Below are positions 32,943 to 44,613 of a stretch of DNA of 64,000 bases, in pieces. The stretch is from Candidatus Margulisiibacteriota bacterium (GTDB taxonomy: Bacteria; Margulisbacteria; Riflemargulisbacteria; GWF2-39-127), in the NCBI GenBank assembly GCA_003242895.1, contig QKMY01000045.1:186001-250000 (forward strand), in the 5' to 3' direction. The translations under genes and the position numbers were made by a program. Each line of letters opens with the position of its first letter. Position 1 is the stretch's first letter. Under the pieces are notes generated by a model. It was given only the letters and a program-made list of their open reading frames with translations, did no database searches and was not told the DNA's origin.

Positions 32943-35425
32943 TATATTATTTCTACTAATCCTTTAGCAGTATCGACGGCTTCAATCGCATCACTCGAAT
33001 AGTATGCGCCGATTTTATCGGCATATGATTGAGTGACTACCGCACCTCCGATCATGACTTTAGCGCGTAATCCACCCTCAAGGCACTTCTTTATTACAAT
33101 TTCCATTTCCGGCATAGTCGTTGTTAACAAAGAACTCAAACAAATCAACTCTGCGTTATGTTCTTTCGCAGAAGCAATAATATCATCGCATTCGACATTC
33201 TTCCCCAGATCAATTACCTTAAATCCATTATTTTCAAGCATCATCGCGACAATATTTTTACCAATATCATGGATATCACCTTTGACGGTAGCAATAATAG
33301 CGGTGCCTTTATAGATAACAGCGTCTGTTTTCATAAACGACTTTAGATAAGCAAAAGCTTTTTTCATCGTCTCTGCACTAGCCATAACCTGGGGCAGAAA
33401 TACTCTCTGGGCTTTAAAATTAGCACCGACATACTCCATACCACCAAGCAATCCTTTTTCCATTATTTCCTGCGGAGTAAAGTCTTTTTTAGCTTTTTCC
33501 ACCATATCAATAATCGAATTGCTGTCGCCTTCGATAACTATCCTGGCAATATCGAACATAACCGGATATTCACGGAGTTTCCGGAGCTTTTGTTCCTCGA
33601 TATTGTTAGAATCATTATTTTTATCCTTTGGCACGCCGGAGATAGTCTCCTCCGCAACAAGAAACGTCTCATGGTTGGCTATGTAGTTGGCACAAATCCG
33701 ATCTCTATTTGTGATAACAGATGACGCGGCAATTAATGACCTGACAAAATGGTCCATGGGGTTAGCGATAATAGCATCCAACCCAGCTCCCAATGCCATC
33801 GCCATAAAGGTATGATTGATAAGCTTCCTTCGAGGAAGCCCATGGGATATATTGCTGATTCCCAGCGAGGTCTTAACCCCCAGTTCATTTTTTACCGTGG
33901 TTAACGCCTTGATCGTCTCCATGGCGTCCTGCTGGTTCGAACTGGCGGCAAGCACCAACGTATCGATGAAGATATCGTTTTTATTAATGCCATATTCCTG
34001 TGCTCGCTCAACAATCTTTCGAGCAATTCTTACTCGGTCTTCCGCTTTAGTGGGAATACCCTTCTCATCTAGCGTTAAACCAATAATGGCAGCACCGTAT
34101 TTCTTCGCTAACGGCAATACCGTTGTCAGGCTCTTTTCTTCACCGTTGACGGAATTAATAAGCGCTTTCCCAGGATACACGCGAAGTCCTTTTTCCAGAA
34201 CGAGATAGTTTGCGCTATCAAGGCATAAGGGAACATCAAAGTGCTTCGTAAGCATGAGTACTACCTGCTGCATTGCTTCAGCCTCGTTAATACCGGGATA
34301 TCCGACATTTACGTCGAGTAAGTCAGGAGCATTCTCAAGTTGTGCTTTTGCTTCTTTATAATAGAGCTCGGTTTTTTGAGATAAAAGATCCTCCGAAAGA
34401 TATTTTTTGGCAGTCGGGTTAAGCCTTTCACCAATAATAACGGGCAAGTGCTGATCAGATATCACTATTTTTTTGTTTCTTGAGGTGAGGACAGTCAGGT
34501 TCTTTATGGGTCCTTTTTTCTCAGTTCGATCAAAAAGCTTCGTAGCACTGATGACCTTTTTTACCTCAGAAATATGTTCCGGCGTGGTCCCGCAACACCC
34601 CCCAAGGATTGAAACACCAAAAGATACGAACGTCTCACTATAAGAAGAAAACTTCACAGGATCGAGATTGTAAACAGTCTTGTTGTCGATCATTTCCGGT
34701 AATCCGGCATTTGGCATCACAGATAGGATAGTGTTAAAGCCATTTTCTTCTTTTGCCTGATTATAAAGCTTGATTACCTGTACCATGCCATCCGGTCCCA
34801 TACCGCAATTAGTACCGATAACCTCAACTCCCATAGCAGCCAAGGTTACGAATACGAGATAGGGGTCAGAGCCGGTCATAGTATAGAGATTCTGATCATA
34901 GGTAACGCTACAGATAATCGGTAAGGTTGTATTGTCTCGTACTGCCAAAACTGCAGCTTTAAGTTCCGCTAAATCCCCCATTGTCTCAATAGAAACGATA
35001 TCGGCACCGCCATCCGCAAAAGCTCTTGCCTGGACAGAAAAACTCTCATAAACTTCTTCAAAACTGGTCGGTCCAACAGGTTCAAGTAACCTGCCACAAG
35101 GTCCTAATGAAGCTGCGACATAGTGATCAATACCGGCAGCTTCCCTTGCCAATACGACTGCAGACTTATTTAACTCATAAGCTCTATCGGACAACCCATA
35201 GTTTTTCAACTTAAGCGGAGACCCGCCAAAGGTATTTGTCTCGATAATATCTGCCCCGGCATCTAGATAAGCCTTGTGAACTTTTTTGATAATATCAGGA
35301 TGCGTGACATTCGCCGATTCAAAGCATGACCCCGAAGGAATGCCTGATTGAAGCAGCAACGTACCCATCGCTCCGTCAATTACCAGTAGGTTATTTTTTA
35401 ATACATCAAGTATAGGTTTTCTCAT
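32942..35425 (-). CDS. metH: Cobalamin-dependent methionine synthase without reactivation domain
   Basis: Transfers the methyl group from methyltetrahydrofolate to homocysteine through cobalamin. It has 827 residues. The homocysteine-binding domain (about 1-290) has the zinc-ligand pattern GTNCG and GGCCGTTPEHI. The pterin-binding domain (about 320-600) includes IIGERLNPT and LLDVNVGYPG. The cobalamin cap and B12 domain (about 630-827) have DIHDIGKNIVAMMLENNGF, with the cobalt-binding His, and VMIGGAVV. The C-terminal SAM-dependent reactivation domain of E. coli MetH is absent, as in some anaerobes and Thermotoga. AAGGA precedes ATG 35425. Confidence 0.96.
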   Translation of the reverse strand: MRKPILDVLKNNLLVIDGAMGTLLLQSGIPSGSCFESANVTHPDIIKKVHKAYLDAGADIIETNTFGGSPLKLKNYGLSDRAYELNKSAVVLAREAAGIDHYVAASLGPCGRLLEPVGPTSFEEVYESFSVQARAFADGGADIVSIETMGDLAELKAAVLAVRDNTTLPIICSVTYDQNLYTMTGSDPYLVFVTLAAMGVEVIGTNCGMGPDGMVQVIKLYNQAKEENGFNTILSVMPNAGLPEMIDNKTVYNLDPVKFSSYSETFVSFGVSILGGCCGTTPEHISEVKKVISATKLFDRTEKKGPIKNLTVLTSRNKKIVISDQHLPVIIGERLNPTAKKYLSEDLLSQKTELYYKEAKAQLENAPDLLDVNVGYPGINEAEAMQQVVLMLTKHFDVPLCLDSANYLVLEKGLRVYPGKALINSVNGEEKSLTTVLPLAKKYGAAIIGLTLDEKGIPTKAEDRVRIARKIVERAQEYGINKNDIFIDTLVLAASSNQQDAMETIKALTTVKNELGVKTSLGISNISHGLPRRKLINHTFMAMALGAGLDAIIANPMDHFVRSLIAASSVITNRDRICANYIANHETFLVAEETISGVPKDKNNDSNNIEEQKLRKLREYPVMFDIARIVIEGDSNSIIDMVEKAKKDFTPQEIMEKGLLGGMEYVGANFKAQRVFLPQVMASAETMKKAFAYLKSFMKTDAVIYKGTAIIATVKGDIHDIGKNIVAMMLENNGFKVIDLGKNVECDDIIASAKEHNAELICLSSLLTTTMPEMEIVIKKCLEGGLRAKVMIGGAVVTQSYADKIGAYYSSDAIEAVDTAKGLVEII

Positions 35426-35651
35426 TTTGATTCCTTTTTACTTCAATTAATAGAGCACCTGCAGCTTTGCTGCCATTGCATTATTATTTTTTCCCGGGTA
35501 GCAGGAATTTAAAATGTTAATCATCGCGACAATACGCGTTAATATAAATGATAGCTGAAAATTCACTGCTGAAAATGAAACGCGCAGCCCCCGAATATAA
35601 TTACCATAATTATTACAAATATACTTTATAATTTTAGGTTTAACAACTATT

Positions 35652-35679
35652 TTGTCTGGGAATAATGTTACTATACAAT
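35652..35679 (+). promoter_or_regulatory. Promoter of the small-gene cluster
   Basis: TTGTCT (35652-35657), a 16-base spacer and TACAAT (35674-35679), 36 bases before the GTG start at 35716. An ATG at 35665 lies inside this promoter, which argues against it being the start. Confidence 0.5.
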
Positions 35680-35715
35680 AAGAGCGTAAACATTAATGAA
35701 AAAGGGAGAAATACC

Positions 35716-36078
35716 GTGCTAGGCAATCAATTAACACAATCTTACTACAATTCAGGTTATTTTCCTCCATCACCAGAAGAAAACAAGGAAAAAAACTTTA
35801 AACATAAAAAATCTAAAATCATTCAATTTGCTGATCCCAATAAAACACTCCCTGACGGAAGCAAAGTTGTTTATGCAGAAAACGATGAAAAAATAACTCT
35901 CTATAAAAAAATCCCAGCCCAGCCAGGATTAGTTTACGTTTATTTACGCCATACTGGTGAGATTTATGTAAATGGCAAAAAGGGAGATATGGAAGATCAA
36001 CGAAAAATGTTACAAATAGGAAAATATCTTCTTGATAATGGCAGAGAATCTGATATGGTAACAATCACTCTAAGCTAG
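35716..36078 (+). CDS. Hypothetical protein, 120 residues
   Basis: I do not recognise this protein. GTG 35716 is chosen because GGGAG (35704-35708) lies just upstream. The first 35 residues are polar and probably disordered (Gln, Asn, Ser and Pro rich). The rest is a compact alpha/beta region: FADPNKTLPDGSKVVYAE, KITLYKKIPAQPGLVYVYLR, GEIYVNGKKGD and KMLQIGKYLLDNGRES. No signal peptide or membrane helix is present. It begins a three-gene cluster of small unknown proteins (spacings 12 and -14 bases) located before the PP2C-type regulator. Confidence 0.6.
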   Translation: MLGNQLTQSYYNSGYFPPSPEENKEKNFKHKKSKIIQFADPNKTLPDGSKVVYAENDEKITLYKKIPAQPGLVYVYLRHTGEIYVNGKKGDMEDQRKMLQIGKYLLDNGRESDMVTITLS

Positions 36079-36090
36079 GAGACCCTGAAA

Positions 36091-36432
36091 ATGTCACTTG
36101 AAGGAATTCAACAGCACTCGAATCAGCAATACGGCAATAATAACCTAAAAAAGGTATCAATCCCGAAAGAGCTTAAAATCCCCGGGACAGTTAGTGAGGT
36201 CCAAAAAGGTGGGCTCATAGCATTAGTAGCTACCGGATTAGCTGAAATCAAAAAAGACCTGGAGAAAAAACTCGACAACGCCAAGAAAAAGATCTCTTCA
36301 GAAGTACTCTCCATGCTTGGAATAGAAGGAGCCGAATCAGGAGAAGAACCCGGAGGGCTCGAGACAGTTAAAAGAGGCCTGCGAGAAGTCTGGAAAAACT
36401 TGCAAATGAAATTGAACAATGATGATAGATAA
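36091..36432 (+). CDS. Hypothetical helical protein, 113 residues
   Basis: Not recognised. AGGAG lies nine bases before ATG 36091. After about 40 disordered residues (rich in Gln and Asn) there is a helical, lysine-rich stretch GLAEIKKDLEKKLDNAKKKI and then EVLSMLGIEGAESGEEPGGL, a second helix and a polar tail. It looks like a small coiled-coil or adapter protein. It overlaps the next gene by 14 bases, so the two are probably made together. Confidence 0.55.
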   Translation: MSLEGIQQHSNQQYGNNNLKKVSIPKELKIPGTVSEVQKGGLIALVATGLAEIKKDLEKKLDNAKKKISSEVLSMLGIEGAESGEEPGGLETVKRGLREVWKNLQMKLNNDDR

Positions 36433-36607
36433 TCCTAACCCTATTACAAATTTTAAGCCTGAAGAAAATAATACCAGCATCATAATTTCTGCTAACGGTA
36501 TAGATGTTGAAATTGAAAGAGAAATCATTGAAGTTTTAGGGATTGATCCACGATTGATGAATATAGAAATCCACAGGATGAAAAAGGAAGAGATAAATAT
36601 AATGTAG
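36419..36607 (+). CDS. Hypothetical small protein, 62 residues
   Basis: Not recognised. ATG 36419 (or 36422) is inside the end of the previous gene and has no strong ribosome binding site. The first 18 residues are disordered; then SIIISANGIDVEIEREIIEV and LGIDPRLMNIEIHRMKKEEI suggest a beta-strand and helix. Translational coupling with the previous gene is the main argument that it is real. Confidence 0.45.
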   Translation: MMIDNPNPITNFKPEENNTSIIISANGIDVEIEREIIEVLGIDPRLMNIEIHRMKKEEINIM

Positions 36608-36717
36608 GAATGACAGCATCTGCAAATTGCTGCATCACGATTTTTCCGATATTTGATTTTTATCCAAGCATAATCTAGAATTAAATAAATATCTGGAAGA
36701 TTTTACCCCATATTTAT

Positions 36718-36745
36718 TTGAATAGCTAATTACAGTTTTTATACT
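36718..36745 (+). promoter_or_regulatory. Promoter of the PP2C/HATPase regulator
   Basis: TTGAAT (36718-36723), a 16-base spacer and TATACT (36740-36745). Transcription would begin around 36752, immediately before the AGGAGG at 36753-36758, giving a very short leader. Confidence 0.55.
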
Positions 36746-36765
36746 GCTATTAAGGAGGAAGAACT

Positions 36766-39621
36766 ATTTCTAATCTTGAGATAGACACGAGTAATGTAAC
36801 TATAGCCAATAAGTTAAAGGCAAATGCTTCTATAGATAACTTAGAGATTTTATCAGAAATTTTTAGTAGAATTAATAATTTGCCTGAAAAAGATCTTATC
36901 GTGCAGATAGTTGGCGGACTAATTAATGAAAACACCTCTCTTCAACAGCGGATCGAGCAGGAAAAAATAAAGCTCCAGCAAAGAAATCACGAATTATCAG
37001 TCCTTTATAATGTCAGCGCGGCCTTAAGTTATTATCTCAGCTATCAAGAGATTGCCAGCTTAATTATGAATTCGCTCTATAGTATTTTAACCTATGATTT
37101 CTGTTCTATTCTTTTGCATGATATTTCTGAAAACAAAGTTATCTACCTTAAGTCCTCACCCTATTTACACAAATCTTTTATAGACAACGTGATATCCAAT
37201 GTCTACAAGACAGCCGAAACCTTCTTCCAACAAAAAATAGATTATAATAATATCACAGTTAATTCTGAGCAGATCTCCATTGACGAAGCCTACGCAATTG
37301 ACGATATCTCTCAGAACATCAGGTCATTTATTAATATCCCGCTCTCATTTAAAGGTGAAATCATTGGAATAACTAGTCTATGCAGTGTTCATGAAAAAGC
37401 TTTTTCAAGAGAAAAAATCGCTTTTGCCTATACTATTGCAAACCAGATGGCCACGGTGCTTGGAAGGCTCAGCCAATTAGTTGAAAGTGAAAAAAAGAGA
37501 ATCAGCCATCTTATCGAGCACCTGGAAGATGCGATCATCATTTTAGACACCAACCAGCAACCTCTCACTCTCAACAAACAAGCGCGTGCTCTTTTCGGCT
37601 TTAAAAATAAAAGCGGGTTTAAGAAAATAGCTAAAATTCTACAAAAGATAAAAATATCCCATCTGGTAAAAGAAGCGCTACAGAACAATACTAAAATTTC
37701 GGGGCAGGAAATTAGTATTCAAAAAAACCAGGAAATCTTGATCTTTTTGGTCAATATCGACCCGGTCTATTCATCTGGGACGAACTTCTTCTCCGGGATT
37801 GCGATTTCACTCAAAAACATATCCTATTTAAAGAAAATCGAAAAAGAAAAGTCGGAGAAAATAGCGATTATCAATAAAGCGCGGGAACTTATTAACTCCA
37901 TCGCCAATCAAGAAAAATTATTCTCAATTTTAGGTGATTACATTTTAAATGTCGCAAACGCCGATATGGGAGCACTTTACCTTCTTGAGAAAAAAATTCT
38001 TTGTACAAAGTCATCATGGGTACTCCCGACGAAGTCAAAATCACGATATATTTCTGAATTCGAAGCAAATTTCCCTGAATCCATTGAATTCATAACAATG
38101 GCAACCGGAGATAATCTGCTCAAAAAAACAATTCAGGCCAGGCGTACCCTTATCTTTAAAAATATCCCGTTAAAAAAGAATTTCCTCTTGGAAAAAGCCA
38201 CAAAAAACTCACAGGAAGTAGATATAGTCCTTAAGGAACTCATATCAGTTCCACTCCTCTCAAAGGAACGAGTAATTGGAATCCTTACTGTCATAAGAAA
38301 AGACAAGCCCGAGATCCAGGAGCTTTCAAAAGATGATATCGAAACATTGGAAACAATCGCCTCACTTTCGGCTTCAGCAATTGAAAATGCCTATCTCTAC
38401 CAAAAAACCCTTAATGAACAGAAAATACAACAAGAATTAAAACTTGCCCACGAAATACAAAAAAGAATACTCCCGAAAAAGCTACCAAAAAGTACTAATT
38501 TTGAATATGGAGGGATTAGCATCCCGGCCCGTGGGATAGGTGGAGACTATTATGATTTTTTTCAAGTTAACAAAAATGATAATAATCATATCGGAATAGC
38601 CATTATTGACGTTATCGGAAAAGGGATTCCGGCAGCCCTTATCACAATTATGATCAAATCTATTATCCAAATAAATGTAAAGGGCTTTCAAAACACCAAA
38701 GAGGTTATAAAAAACATTAATATAGCAGTTTTAAATGAGCCTGCTATAACAAAATTCGTACCGATGTTCTACTGTATTATTAATGACTCCATGAGAGAAC
38801 TTCGGTATACCAATGCCGGTCATGAAGTACCACTCCTGTTTGTTGCAAAAACTGATGAATTCTTAAAGCTTGATACCGAAGGGTTTCCTGTGGGAGGCCT
38901 TGAAGACATTGATTATGAACAAAAAAGCCTGATTTTAGCACCGGGAGACATCTTATCTATATACACTGATGGTATAGTTGAAGCTAGAAGCCCTGAAGGA
39001 GAAAATTTTGGGGAAGACCGACTCCAAAAATACATACGAAAATACAAACATTTACCTTCAAATAAAATCGTCGATAAAATATATACGAGCCTAATTAATT
39101 TTGTTAAAGATGCTCCGCAGCATGATGACATCACGCTCGTCATTATAAAAGCAAAAGACCTCGATGGAATATCGGTCAGACATCAAGATAAAGTTTTATG
39201 GGAAAAACAACTTCATATCTCAAGCGCAACTAAGAATGTTAAATTGGTGCGAGAGGCTGTCGAAGAAGCAAGCAAAATTATGGGATTTAATACATCGGCA
39301 ATTTATGATATAAAACTAGCAGTAAATGAAGCACATGCAAATATTATCAAACATGCCTACGGAAATGATCCAGACCAAAATATAATATTTAAAGTTACCG
39401 TATTTGTTGACCGGGTCGAATATTATTTTCAAGATTTCGGGAAAACATATGGAGAACTAGCAATAAAACAAACCCGTAGCCTTGACGACTTTCAAGGGAA
39501 TGGACTCGGTGTGTTCTTGATAAAATCGACAATGGACGATGTTACATATAAAATCGATCCAGGGAAGGGAACAGAACTAATAATGATAAAATATTCCGAA
39601 CAGCTTGAAAATAATGTATAA
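36766..39621 (+). CDS. GAF-PP2C-HATPase regulator (RsbU- and RsbW-type domains in one chain)
   Basis: About 951 residues. Order: an N-terminal helical coil, a GAF domain (about 75-205), a PAS-like segment (about 245-345), a second GAF-like domain (about 360-545), a coil EIQKRILPKKLP, a SpoIIE/RsbU-type PP2C phosphatase (about 575-790; GIGGDYYDFF, IIDVIGKGIPAAL, YTNAGHEVPLL, YTDGIVEARSPEGENFG, HDDITLVII) and an RsbW/SpoIIAB-type HATPase (about 815-945; NEAHANIIKHAYGND, GNGLGVFLI). AGGAGG (36753-36758) lies seven bases before an ATT at 36766. From the upstream stop to TTG 36880 the frame has no ATG, GTG or TTG, and TTG 36880 has no ribosome binding site, so ATT is the likely start. It probably phosphorylates and dephosphorylates the adjacent STAS protein; no sigma factor is adjacent. 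Confidence 0.88.
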   Translation: MSNLEIDTSNVTIANKLKANASIDNLEILSEIFSRINNLPEKDLIVQIVGGLINENTSLQQRIEQEKIKLQQRNHELSVLYNVSAALSYYLSYQEIASLIMNSLYSILTYDFCSILLHDISENKVIYLKSSPYLHKSFIDNVISNVYKTAETFFQQKIDYNNITVNSEQISIDEAYAIDDISQNIRSFINIPLSFKGEIIGITSLCSVHEKAFSREKIAFAYTIANQMATVLGRLSQLVESEKKRISHLIEHLEDAIIILDTNQQPLTLNKQARALFGFKNKSGFKKIAKILQKIKISHLVKEALQNNTKISGQEISIQKNQEILIFLVNIDPVYSSGTNFFSGIAISLKNISYLKKIEKEKSEKIAIINKARELINSIANQEKLFSILGDYILNVANADMGALYLLEKKILCTKSSWVLPTKSKSRYISEFEANFPESIEFITMATGDNLLKKTIQARRTLIFKNIPLKKNFLLEKATKNSQEVDIVLKELISVPLLSKERVIGILTVIRKDKPEIQELSKDDIETLETIASLSASAIENAYLYQKTLNEQKIQQELKLAHEIQKRILPKKLPKSTNFEYGGISIPARGIGGDYYDFFQVNKNDNNHIGIAIIDVIGKGIPAALITIMIKSIIQINVKGFQNTKEVIKNINIAVLNEPAITKFVPMFYCIINDSMRELRYTNAGHEVPLLFVAKTDEFLKLDTEGFPVGGLEDIDYEQKSLILAPGDILSIYTDGIVEARSPEGENFGEDRLQKYIRKYKHLPSNKIVDKIYTSLINFVKDAPQHDDITLVIIKAKDLDGISVRHQDKVLWEKQLHISSATKNVKLVREAVEEASKIMGFNTSAIYDIKLAVNEAHANIIKHAYGNDPDQNIIFKVTVFVDRVEYYFQDFGKTYGELAIKQTRSLDDFQGNGLGVFLIKSTMDDVTYKIDPGKGTELIMIKYSEQLENNV

Positions 39622-39677
39622 ACCATTATAAAATATGAAAAGGTAATGCTAATTAAATCTAGAGAAGGAGTTTCACC

Positions 39678-40064
39678 ATGGAAATTAAGCAAAGAACGAA
39701 AAATAACGTAATTATCTTAGATATTGGATACGAGCTTACAAAAAATGATGAAGGACAAGAAACTGTAACAGGATTTACCGAGCTTGATATTGACAATCAT
39801 TTTATCTTTTTAGAAGCCATCGATGCTCTTCTCGATTCAGGACAAAATAATATCATTGTTAATTTAAGCAATGTATCCTATATAGACAGCTCAGGATTGG
39901 GCTCAATATTTGACGGCTACAGAAAAACCATTGCAAAAAATGGCAATTTAAAGTTATCAAATACCAATAAAGACGTAAAACGTGTTCTTGAAATTACAAA
40001 AATTTCTAAAAAGATTGATATTTTCGACACTGAAGATGAAGCGCTACAAAGCTTTCATTCATAA
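39678..40064 (+). CDS. STAS-domain anti-sigma-factor antagonist
   Basis: A 128-residue STAS protein of the SpoIIAA/RsbV type. The phosphorylatable Ser lies in VSYIDSSGLGSIFDGY. The loop before it is longer than in SpoIIAA (LTKNDEGQETVTGFTELD inserted after the first strand). GAAGGAG lies seven bases before ATG 39678. It follows the PP2C/HATPase protein by 56 bases, the natural kinase/phosphatase for this Ser. Together they form a partner-switching module whose output is not visible. Confidence 0.9.
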   Translation: MEIKQRTKNNVIILDIGYELTKNDEGQETVTGFTELDIDNHFIFLEAIDALLDSGQNNIIVNLSNVSYIDSSGLGSIFDGYRKTIAKNGNLKLSNTNKDVKRVLEITKISKKIDIFDTEDEALQSFHS

Positions 40065-40102
40065 ATGCTAAGGTGCTAAGCTAACATCTATCGCAAATCC
40101 GT

Positions 40103-40144
40103 ATTATAAAAAATACTCTATGAGTATTTTTTATAATCTTTTTG
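40103..40144 (+). terminator. Intrinsic terminator after the STAS gene
   Basis: A perfect 16-bp stem (40103-40118 with 40122-40137), three-base loop and a T-rich tail. It ends the PP2C/STAS operon. The next gene starts only about 20 bases beyond and so may depend on read-through or an unseen promoter. Confidence 0.88.
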
Positions 40145-40165
40145 TTTATAACTGAACTGAGAATT

Positions 40166-40753
40166 ATGGAAAGTGATCACTTACACAATATTGTAAAAGT
40201 TCTTGAGGGTAATGATATTACAAAAATATCAGAAGCCCTTACGTTCATTATTTTTTCTAATCCGGCAATAGACAGCAAGCTATTACTTAACCTTCTTAAT
40301 CACTCTCTCCCGGAAATCTCACTGGGAGCGTTTCAAGCACTCGGATCTTATAACGGGATTTTTAATGAGCAGATTATCGAGGAACTTAAAGAAAATGATG
40401 ACCAAATCAAGCAGGCAATGCTTATAGCAGCACTTTCGGTCCAGCCTACCGAGGCAAGTATTGCTTATTTTGTTGAATGCCTATCAGCCCAAGATGAAGT
40501 ATTGCAATCGGTGGCCCTAGAAATACTCACAAATTATCAGGAGTTAAGTCTCATACCTTTATTAACCAAAACCTTAACAGCCACGGAACATGAGCTCATT
40601 GCGATTAAAACAGTTTTTGAAAAAATCGGCACAACAAAAGTATTCGAGCTCCTTAAGCAAACTCCTTTTGAGGCTATTCTTGAAAATTTGAAAAAAATAT
40701 ATTCGGAAGATGAACTCAAGCAGCTTTCCGTTTCTTCTATCAACCCTCTTTAA
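40166..40753 (+). CDS. HEAT-repeat-like protein
   Basis: About 195 residues with repeated helical pairs typical of HEAT repeats: LLNHSLPEISLGAFQALGSY, IKQAMLIAALSVQPTEA, CLSAQDEVLQSVALEILTNY and IPLLTKTLTATEHELIAIKT. No signal peptide or membrane helix. ATG 40166 follows CTGAG weakly; TTG 40142 overlaps the terminator. It probably serves as a protein-protein scaffold. The function is unknown, and the link to the preceding regulatory module is only position. Confidence 0.65.
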   Translation: MESDHLHNIVKVLEGNDITKISEALTFIIFSNPAIDSKLLLNLLNHSLPEISLGAFQALGSYNGIFNEQIIEELKENDDQIKQAMLIAALSVQPTEASIAYFVECLSAQDEVLQSVALEILTNYQELSLIPLLTKTLTATEHELIAIKTVFEKIGTTKVFELLKQTPFEAILENLKKIYSEDELKQLSVSSINPL

Positions 40754-41964: not shown

Positions 41965-43740
41965 ATGATACTTTCAAAGCTATTTCTGATCCTTTCACTC
42001 CTCACTCTAGTGTGTAGCTATGCGTTAGCTGCCGATGACATCCTCAAAACCAGTTGGGAACATTATAAAAGTTACAAGATTGAACCTGATGGAAGGCCAT
42101 TAGCAGACCTCGACAGGGAAGATATCGCTAATGGAAGCAAAGATTCCTATTTAACTTTTTCAGAAACTGTCTCATACGTACTATTCCGCTCAGTTTGGGT
42201 CAATGACAAAGAAACTTTCGATAAAACCTGGAAATGGGCGTATCATAACCTCATGAGAAAAAACATTAAGACATTCAATTGGCAAACAAAACAGTGGACA
42301 GAACTTCCAATAGAAAAGCAAGATAATCTCTTTGCCTGGAGATGGACAAAAAACGTAAATCAATCAGGACGAGACGGAGTCATTTACTATACCTGGCAAA
42401 AAAACAATCTTGAAAAGCAATGGAGGTCCGGGTATGACGTTGCTCCTGATGGCGATGAATTAATAGCAGGGTCCCTCATTTTTGCTCATAATCGATGGGG
42501 TTCAGAAAAAGGCGAACTCAACTACCTTTCCAATGCAAAAAATATTTTACATGATCTCTGGAACAAATGCGTTCTAAAAATCACGCCAGGCGAAATTGAT
42601 GGATTTGACAATCCTCTTACCGTAGGCGCTTGGTTCTCATATTCATCGGATGGGTTATCAGTAAAAAAGAAACTCGTTAACGGAATAAGCACCGGACATG
42701 GTCTCTATGCGGGATCTTTCGGCGCAACCTATATGGGGATAGGAAAAGTCCTGGGCAATTCAAACTTATCGGAAACAGAAGGCCTGTCTTTTTATGCAAA
42801 GGGCACTGACGCAGTTAGAATTATTATTGAAGATACTAACGGATTAAAAGCAAGTATAGTAAAAAATCTATGGGAAGAGGATTGGGAAAATATTGTTTTT
42901 TCATTCAGCGAGATGGATTCCCCTCGCGAATTTAATTGGGAAGGCGTTAAAAACATAATGTTTCAACCAGAAGGAGACGAATTTTATATCGACAATATAA
43001 TTCTTTATGGCGGAAAAATTATTGGAAAGCCAAGGATACACCTTGTTTCAAACGATCATGGACAGCCATGGATCAATATATCCTATTATATGCCCTTTCT
43101 CTATGAGATATTTGCAGGCGTCGACACTGCAAGACCATGGAAAGAACTTATAGAATCAACGTATTATGATATTAATCGAGGTTCGACTGCTAAATTAAAA
43201 AATCAAAAAGGTGAATTGGTTATTGGAAATAACACCCTTGTTCCTGACTGGTTCATGTACTCGCTCACTGGAGAAGTTATTGACCTCCCCTGGGCACAAG
43301 ATAATAAGATTGATGATTACCTTTGCAGCTGGGACGCTTTTAGAATCTGGTTTTTTATTTCGCTTCATAGTTCCTGGTACGAAACCTCACTACCGGAAAA
43401 TATCTTAAAGAATAAAACCTATGAATTCTTTAAGACTGAACTTAATAAAAATGGGTTTATTCGAGGCGGCTACTATTTATCTGGGAAATCAGGAGATATA
43501 AGAGGACTTAACTACGAATACCCCGGAATAAATGGGGCCTATCTGGCTTTCTTTCATGCAGCAGGAGATACTGTAAATGCAAAAAAAATATTTAATAGAA
43601 TGCAAAACCGATATAATGCTGCTGGATATTGGGATAAAGACCCTTATGATTATTACAGTCAAAACTGGGCATGGTTAGGGTTAGCTTTTTATAAAGACAG
43701 AGGGAAAGAATTATTTAATTTTTTACCGCTAAGAAGATAA
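41965..43740 (+). CDS. Secreted glycoside hydrolase family 8 enzyme with an inserted sugar-binding-like domain
   Basis: A 591-residue protein with a signal peptide (LFLILSLLTLVCSYALA). The GH8 fold, which cleaves beta-1,4 glucans, xylans or chitosan, is recognised by YLTFSETVSYVLFRSVWVND with E67 as the probable acid, DKETFDKTWKWAYHNL, LFAWRW, VAPDGDELIAGSLIFAHNRW (substrate Asp region) and SWDAFRIWFFIS (probable base). Between residues about 211 and 352, inside the helical barrel, sits a beta-sandwich-like segment (DGLSVKKKLVNG, TEGLSFYAKGTDAVRIII, KNIMFQPEGDEFYIDNIILY) resembling CBM or CIA30-type domains. GH8 resumes at QPWINISYYMP. It could process cell-made glucan (like BcsZ) or external polymer. 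No cellulose synthase is nearby. The ribosome binding site is weak. Confidence 0.8.
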   Translation: MILSKLFLILSLLTLVCSYALAADDILKTSWEHYKSYKIEPDGRPLADLDREDIANGSKDSYLTFSETVSYVLFRSVWVNDKETFDKTWKWAYHNLMRKNIKTFNWQTKQWTELPIEKQDNLFAWRWTKNVNQSGRDGVIYYTWQKNNLEKQWRSGYDVAPDGDELIAGSLIFAHNRWGSEKGELNYLSNAKNILHDLWNKCVLKITPGEIDGFDNPLTVGAWFSYSSDGLSVKKKLVNGISTGHGLYAGSFGATYMGIGKVLGNSNLSETEGLSFYAKGTDAVRIIIEDTNGLKASIVKNLWEEDWENIVFSFSEMDSPREFNWEGVKNIMFQPEGDEFYIDNIILYGGKIIGKPRIHLVSNDHGQPWINISYYMPFLYEIFAGVDTARPWKELIESTYYDINRGSTAKLKNQKGELVIGNNTLVPDWFMYSLTGEVIDLPWAQDNKIDDYLCSWDAFRIWFFISLHSSWYETSLPENILKNKTYEFFKTELNKNGFIRGGYYLSGKSGDIRGLNYEYPGINGAYLAFFHAAGDTVNAKKIFNRMQNRYNAAGYWDKDPYDYYSQNWAWLGLAFYKDRGKELFNFLPLRR

Positions 43741-44232
43741 TGCGATATTAATAACTATCCGGCCAACTTTCGTATCAATAGGAATATGCAATATCTTTGT
43801 AATTTTTTCTGGTGCTGAAAAGGAGGAGGCAGTAATTATTTCGGGCGTAGAAATATCAAAACAGATTCCGCTTTCTCGCAGGTATGAAATTGCCTTTCCG
43901 GCAATCATATTGGCCATTTCTTTGATTGTAGCCGTCACCATTCCATTATATAAATTCAATACCGTACTATTCATTATTTCGGAAACCTTTATCGAAGTTT
44001 CTTCTTTCATATCAAAAATAAACAATCCTTCCAAATCACCAAAAAAGTTTATTATTATAAGCTGCTCACCGAGAAAACTGTATTCTTTTTTTATTGAAAG
44101 TTCACCTTGTTTAATTTCGGATGATGGAAGTAACTGCCGCAGGACTGATAATGCCCCGGTAACAAAAGGATTGATTATGTCGGCTTTCATATTGTTTACA
44201 ATATCCCTTCTAACGAATTTAATTACACCCAA
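43729..44232 (-). CDS. cheX: CheX-like CheY-P phosphatase
   Basis: A 167-residue CheC/CheX/FliY-family protein with a single active-site motif E-x-x-N in ATIKEMANMIAGKAISYL. This pattern and length match CheX, a dimeric CheY-P phosphatase. The C-terminus LHIPIDTKVGRIVINIAL is the usual last strand. Start: TTG 44232 abuts the cheY stop; ATG 44190 (AGAAGG upstream, loosely spaced) would give 153 residues and begin MKADIINPF, closer to typical CheX. Its 3' end overlaps the end of the GH8 gene by 12 bases, convergently. It is last in cheA-cheY-cheX. Confidence 0.85.
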   Translation of the reverse strand: MGVIKFVRRDIVNNMKADIINPFVTGALSVLRQLLPSSEIKQGELSIKKEYSFLGEQLIIINFFGDLEGLFIFDMKEETSIKVSEIMNSTVLNLYNGMVTATIKEMANMIAGKAISYLRESGICFDISTPEIITASSFSAPEKITKILHIPIDTKVGRIVINIALSS

Positions 44233-44613
44233 TTAATATCTTTTGTTGAGTACATACTTAATTACGTCCTTAACGATAGAGGGCGTGAACGGTTTAACAA
44301 TAAAATGCTTTGCACCCAAAAGGATTGCTTTTTTTACCTCATCTTTATTTCCTAAAGCACTAATCATAATAACTTTTGCTTTCGGATTTATCTTCAAAAG
44401 TTCTTGCAAAGTGACTATTCCATCTTGTTTCGGCATCGAAATATCAAGAGTCACAAGATCAACATTATCAGCTATATTTTTATATTTCTCAATAGCATCC
44501 ATTCCATCAGTTGCCTTATCTATAACTTCGCAACCAATTGTCTCCAGATTCTTTATCAACAAATTAATCATAAATTCCGAATCATCAACAATAAACACCT
44601 TTGCAAGGACCAT
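44233..44613 (-). CDS. cheY: CheY-like response regulator
   Basis: A 126-residue single receiver domain. The acidic pair is D10/D11 (FIVDDSEFM) and the phospho-acceptor D57 (LVTLDISMPKQDG). Thr/Ser switch region VIMISALGNK and Lys in FIVKPFTPS are present. It lies between cheA and cheX with 34- and 0-base spacing, so it is the likely CheA output that binds FliM. GGAG precedes ATG 44613. Confidence 0.93.
   Translation of the reverse strand: MVLAKVFIVDDSEFMINLLIKNLETIGCEVIDKATDGMDAIEKYKNIADNVDLVTLDISMPKQDGIVTLQELLKINPKAKVIMISALGNKDEVKKAILLGAKHFIVKPFTPSIVKDVIKYVLNKRY

Follow-up and report, generated by a model that had tools for sequence, protein, structure and literature searches.

A probable ATT start codon for a SpoIIE phosphatase/HATPase regulator in a Margulisbacteria genome

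Where does translation begin in a gene whose reading frame offers no ATG, GTG or TTG at its ribosome-binding site? The question is raised by a regulator gene encoded on the plus strand of the window, a 64,000-nucleotide stretch of a contig from a Margulisbacteria assembly (82 contigs, 3.35 Mb in all). A first-pass annotation had proposed that the gene opens at an ATT codon and that the protein thereby gains 38 N-terminal residues over one beginning at the first canonical codon, a TTG.

Layout of the start site and the gene it opens

Reading of the sequence confirmed the proposed layout. An in-frame TAA (36751-36753, plus strand) closes the reading frame upstream of the regulator, and the Shine-Dalgarno (SD) sequence AAGGAGG lies at 36752-36758 (plus strand; its AGGAGG part at 36753-36758), separated by 7 bases from the ATT at 36766-36768 (plus strand). 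From that ATT the frame runs without ATG, GTG or TTG up to the TTG at 36880-36882, which would be residue 39; the 38-codon extension thus spans 36766-36879. As the genome's own 16S tail, at its 3' end, is GGATCACCTCCTTTCT, all seven bases of the AAGGAGG can pair with it. The TTG was correctly described as lacking a ribosome-binding site, SD matches before it staying below 4. The predicted RNA fold around the start is ordinary (z -0.13), and an Rfam search of 35400-40200 returned zero matches.

The promoter that had been proposed just upstream found no support beyond chance. The sequence TTGAAT-16-TATACT (36718-36745, plus strand; TTGAAT at 36718-36723, TATACT at 36740-36745) is within the chance level, with 7 promoter-like sites in 551 bp compared with 3.3 (sd 1.8) in shuffled sequence. 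Five of the 7 sites, each scoring 9 of 12, share one strand. The doubtful site would place the transcript start on or beside the SD sequence.

Read from the ATT, the coding sequence (36766-39621, plus strand) specifies 951 residues. Pfam assigns a GAF domain to residues 94-231, a PAS domain to 245-342, a second GAF to 382-540 (the best stretch of the GAF_2 model), a SpoIIE (PP2C) phosphatase domain to 606-796 (38581-39153, E 5e-44) and an RsbW-like HATPase_c_2 domain to 819-942 (39220-39591, E 8.7e-21), the last two both exceeding the cut-off. Downstream on the same strand lies a STAS (RsbV-like) gene (39678-40064, Pfam E 7.8e-17) with an ATG start and the SD sequence AGAAGGAG. Judged by these domain matches, the regulator and the STAS gene are composed like a partner-switching module whose phosphatase and kinase are joined in a single chain; we take the functions to be those named RsbU, RsbW and RsbV. 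Upstream of the regulator, three consecutive small open reading frames (35665-36607 of the window; 137, 113 and 62 residues) have no Pfam match.

Homologues and the rival start at TTG 36880

The strongest alternative is that translation starts at TTG 36880 without an SD sequence, the upstream AAGGAGG and open frame being a coincidence. Several features of the extension suit this alternative. In an AlphaFold2 model of residues 1-245 (13 sequences, mean pLDDT 79), residues 1-18 have pLDDT below 50 and the confident helix spans 41-87, beginning two residues past the TTG; since that helix begins at residue 41, a TTG-started protein would lose no confidently folded part. The 38 codons of the extension show neutral usage, falling at the 24th percentile relative to the N-termini of 134 SD-started genes. 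Among intergenic windows of 38 codons, 5387 of 25910 are open, and 32% of the open ones reach the codon-usage score of the extension. Nor is a TTG start without SD impossible for this genome, since in 46 of 269 surveyed genes none of the canonical starts up to 60 codons from the first one has an SD match of at least 4.

Set against this are the SD sequence itself, seven bases long at a spacing of 7 directly after an in-frame stop, and the nearest homologue. Homologues of the regulator were searched for in 55 genomes, and 10 other genomes hold one aligned over at least 889 of the 951 residues. Of 74 phylum genomes listed, the nearest 7 belong to the same class and none to the same order or family; no orthologue nearer than the one in genome G032 (38%) was found among the 74. 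The G032 gene is the same as that at locus L097 (record JAHFDA010000043.1), and L097 and L008 count as one homologue because both hold the same gene. The G030 match at C130:7970 and locus L100 (CALLLO010000130.1) fall in the same place. By eye, a STAS-like frame also follows the nearest homologue.

The first canonical start of the nearest homologue is an ATG without a clear SD, located 34 residues before the TTG position and 4 residues from the ATT. Accordingly, this protein reaches 34 residues further upstream than a TTG-started one, and the two share a 12-residue block there: residues 8-19 of the regulator, TSNVTIANKLKA, match residues 4-15 of the homologue, TDNIKLAEKTKA. When the 38 residues were shuffled, 92 of 20000 shuffles scored as well anywhere and 34 of 20000 within 6 residues of the diagonal, while the other two frames of the extension DNA score 16 and 15 versus 32 in the ATT frame. 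On conservation of the added residues, which the first-pass annotation had offered as a check, the sole homologue of this architecture found gives resemblance in this 12-residue block; the remainder of the extension is not conserved. Nor does the homologue share the ATT, having ATG instead. Since its start lies upstream of the TTG position and the block is common to both proteins, the proposal withstood the comparison that had been named as able to refute it, namely homologues beginning at the TTG or keeping nothing upstream of it.

A wider survey of homologue starts covered 16 loci, the window's own copy being left out; here the first start means the first ATG, GTG or TTG after a stop and not a proven start. 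In 12 of the 16 loci, all more distant, the first canonical codon precedes the TTG position by 163-185 residues. In the other 4 it lies 34 (L038), 21 (L048), 98 (L053) and 410 (L052) residues upstream; the L048 frame, of 589 residues, aligns with just the N-terminal part of the regulator. None of the 16 has its first canonical codon at the TTG position. A contig scan with the full regulator protein as query returned zero relatives, and one with alignment A1 returned 18 loci, of which 12 (L097 to L108) were used and the other 6 have 19-25% identity.

Non-canonical starts elsewhere in the genome and phylum

Whether an ATT behind a strong SD is unusual in this genome bears on the same choice. Genome-wide, AAGGAGG followed after 5 to 9 bases by ATG occurs at 94 sites compared with 33 for the reversed control, a clear start signal. 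The same motif with ATT occurs at 39 sites compared with 57 for its reversed control, and ATT is thus no general start codon here. All 39 sites were inspected for a frame of at least 100 codons that is unserved by a canonical start and not antisense to another frame of similar length. Besides the regulator, 6 of the 39 open frames of at least 100 codons. Five of these (L162, L178, L197, L199 and L200) have a canonical start one codon downstream that fits the same SD. The sixth (L180, at 43820 of the window) has no canonical codon at its SD, but on the minus strand a frame of 167 residues runs antisense to its own (43733-44236). The regulator is therefore the sole site among the 39 with a long frame, no canonical start at the SD and no antisense frame of similar length, which counts against the coincidence that the TTG-started alternative requires. 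By eye, the minus-strand region at 43729-44613 holds a response-regulator receiver-like frame and then the CheX-like 167-residue frame, to which the AAGGAGG and ATT at 43820 (plus strand) are antisense.

A gene-level survey took in 439 kb, roughly 13% of the genome, where 269 genes were predicted with a simple codon model. It was scored against the genome's own 16S tail, which replaced an E. coli-type reference (TAAGGAGGTGA). We looked for an SD match of at least 6 before ATT, ATA, ATC or CTG, with the first canonical codon lying at least 29 codons downstream and having no SD match of at least 5 itself. Only the regulator and infC were found with this arrangement. Two weaker cases, C24:37077 (AAGGAG, ATA) and C45:137715 on the minus strand (TAAGGA, ATA), were left out, as each has an ATG 7 codons downstream. 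Stray SD-like 7-mers number 6 in 2126 gap codons, 4 of them belonging to neither the regulator nor infC. The chance of such an SD with an ATT, ATA, ATC or CTG within its range in a gap this long is about 2% by a hand estimate, so the SD alone is good, not overwhelming, evidence.

The same survey touched a TPR gene (L129, G000:C24:67991, minus strand) that by eye resembles O-GlcNAc transferases. The gene appears to be coding almost from its in-frame stop onwards, but its first ATG, GTG or TTG is 128 codons in. Because a different frame holds an ATG slightly upstream, the likely cause is a frameshift, an assembly error or a further unusual start.

infC provides a parallel within the same genome. 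At its locus (L096, G000:C24:130159-130410), GGAGGTG precedes an ATA, and the first canonical codon, a TTG, is 29 codons downstream; the gene appears from this arrangement to start at ATA. In a sample of 27 infC loci from 28 phylum genomes (the phylum loci being L135-L160), 21 have an SD-preceded ATA, ATT or ATC located 6 to 9 codons before a conserved Asn, with SD matches of at least 4 and mostly 6-7. L137 and L140 also show an SD-preceded ATA, ATT or ATC, giving 23 of 27; it is absent in L138, L144 and L145, and L148 is outside both the 23 positives and these 3 negatives. Some of the 23 hold in-frame canonical codons too, mostly without SD. Given the 23 of 27 loci, the phylum very probably initiates infC at non-canonical AT-codons, like other bacteria. 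The regulator resembles infC in that an AT(T/A/C) start stands behind a strong SD. The product of infC controls expression of its own gene, as PMC13009471 also describes for E. coli; for the regulator no such loop is expected, and in this the two genes differ.

The apparent non-canonical infC start also bears on a further alternative, that position 36768 really carries a G, through assembly error or a minority strain, leaving an ordinary ATG in the same place. One substitution would indeed give SD-7-ATG, the nearest homologue carries ATG, and the assembly is in 82 contigs. However, the same genome tolerates what looks like a non-canonical start on infC, and assemblies of good depth seldom contain point errors; we regard this alternative as somewhat less probable still than the already improbable TTG start. 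Another non-canonical start on the same SD, either ACT (spacing 4) or TCT (spacing 10), both within its range, or an out-of-frame start with a frameshift, is very improbable, as both other frames have early stops and, to our knowledge, neither ACT nor TCT initiates at useful rates.

An ATT start with 38 additional residues is thus supported by the SD, the genome-wide uniqueness of the site, the infC parallel and the nearest homologue, as the first-pass annotation had proposed. From this sequence evidence, translation of the regulator most likely starts at ATT 36766 on the AAGGAGG at spacing 7.

An AUU start and the supply of the regulator

While the ATT start is very probable, its regulatory reading is plausible. 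Under that reading, the initiator tRNA would read the ATT at 36766 as Met, with the strong SD holding the 30S subunit at the AUU. IF3 would presumably discriminate against the AUU pairing, and because of that discrimination initiation would be possible but weak, at a fraction of the AUG level. The outcome would be a scarce phosphatase/anti-sigma chain facing a possibly more abundant STAS partner translated from an SD and an ATG. No report on IF3 start-codon discrimination was found in the open-licence PMC papers searched.

A weak AUU start behind a strong SD is an already known means of keeping a protein scarce. Binns and Masters are said to have found in 2002 that E. coli pcnB is limited by its AUU start. 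Like the regulator as read here, pcnB would be a gene limited by an AUU start, although its product, poly(A) polymerase, is an unrelated protein. In S. aureus, cvfC1 (AUU) and ccpN (AUA) have extended SD sequences and starts shown by ribosome profiling, and in poor medium AUU and AUA reporters reached about 10% of the AUG level, according to PMC13009471. The same paper describes the cvfC1 start as conserved among Staphylococci and that of ccpN as far as B. subtilis, whereas the nearest homologue of the regulator has ATG. From such published measurements in other bacteria it follows that the regulator would probably be kept scarce by its AUU start.

The closest comparison in kind is with Listeria. 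In start-codon mutants of rsbW, expression followed the order ATG > ATA > ATT, and the authors propose that a shifted RsbW:SigB ratio raised SigB activity (PMC13068326). The rsbW ATT mutants resemble the regulator in that a partner-switching kinase gene has an ATT start. They differ in being laboratory-selected mutations of a stand-alone rsbW (PMC13068326), while the ATT of the regulator is the genome's own state and belongs to a phosphatase-kinase fusion. In the open-licence PMC papers searched, no partner-switching gene was found reported with a natural AUU start, and none of the papers named both Margulisbacteria and RsbU. We tentatively suggest that the natural AUU start may set the ratio of phosphatase/kinase to STAS protein and may tie the level at which a stress response is poised to that of IF3, a possibility we hold to be doubtful at present. 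If true, it would be stoichiometry control of the kind seen in the Listeria rsbW mutants operating outside the laboratory, a natural counterpart of the rsbW ATT mutants.

Should the AUU start prove real, the few natural AUU starts on record would gain one in a signalling regulator, from a phylum known largely through metagenomes. Gene prediction programs working with ATG, GTG and TTG would cut 38 residues off such a protein and start it at the SD-less TTG.
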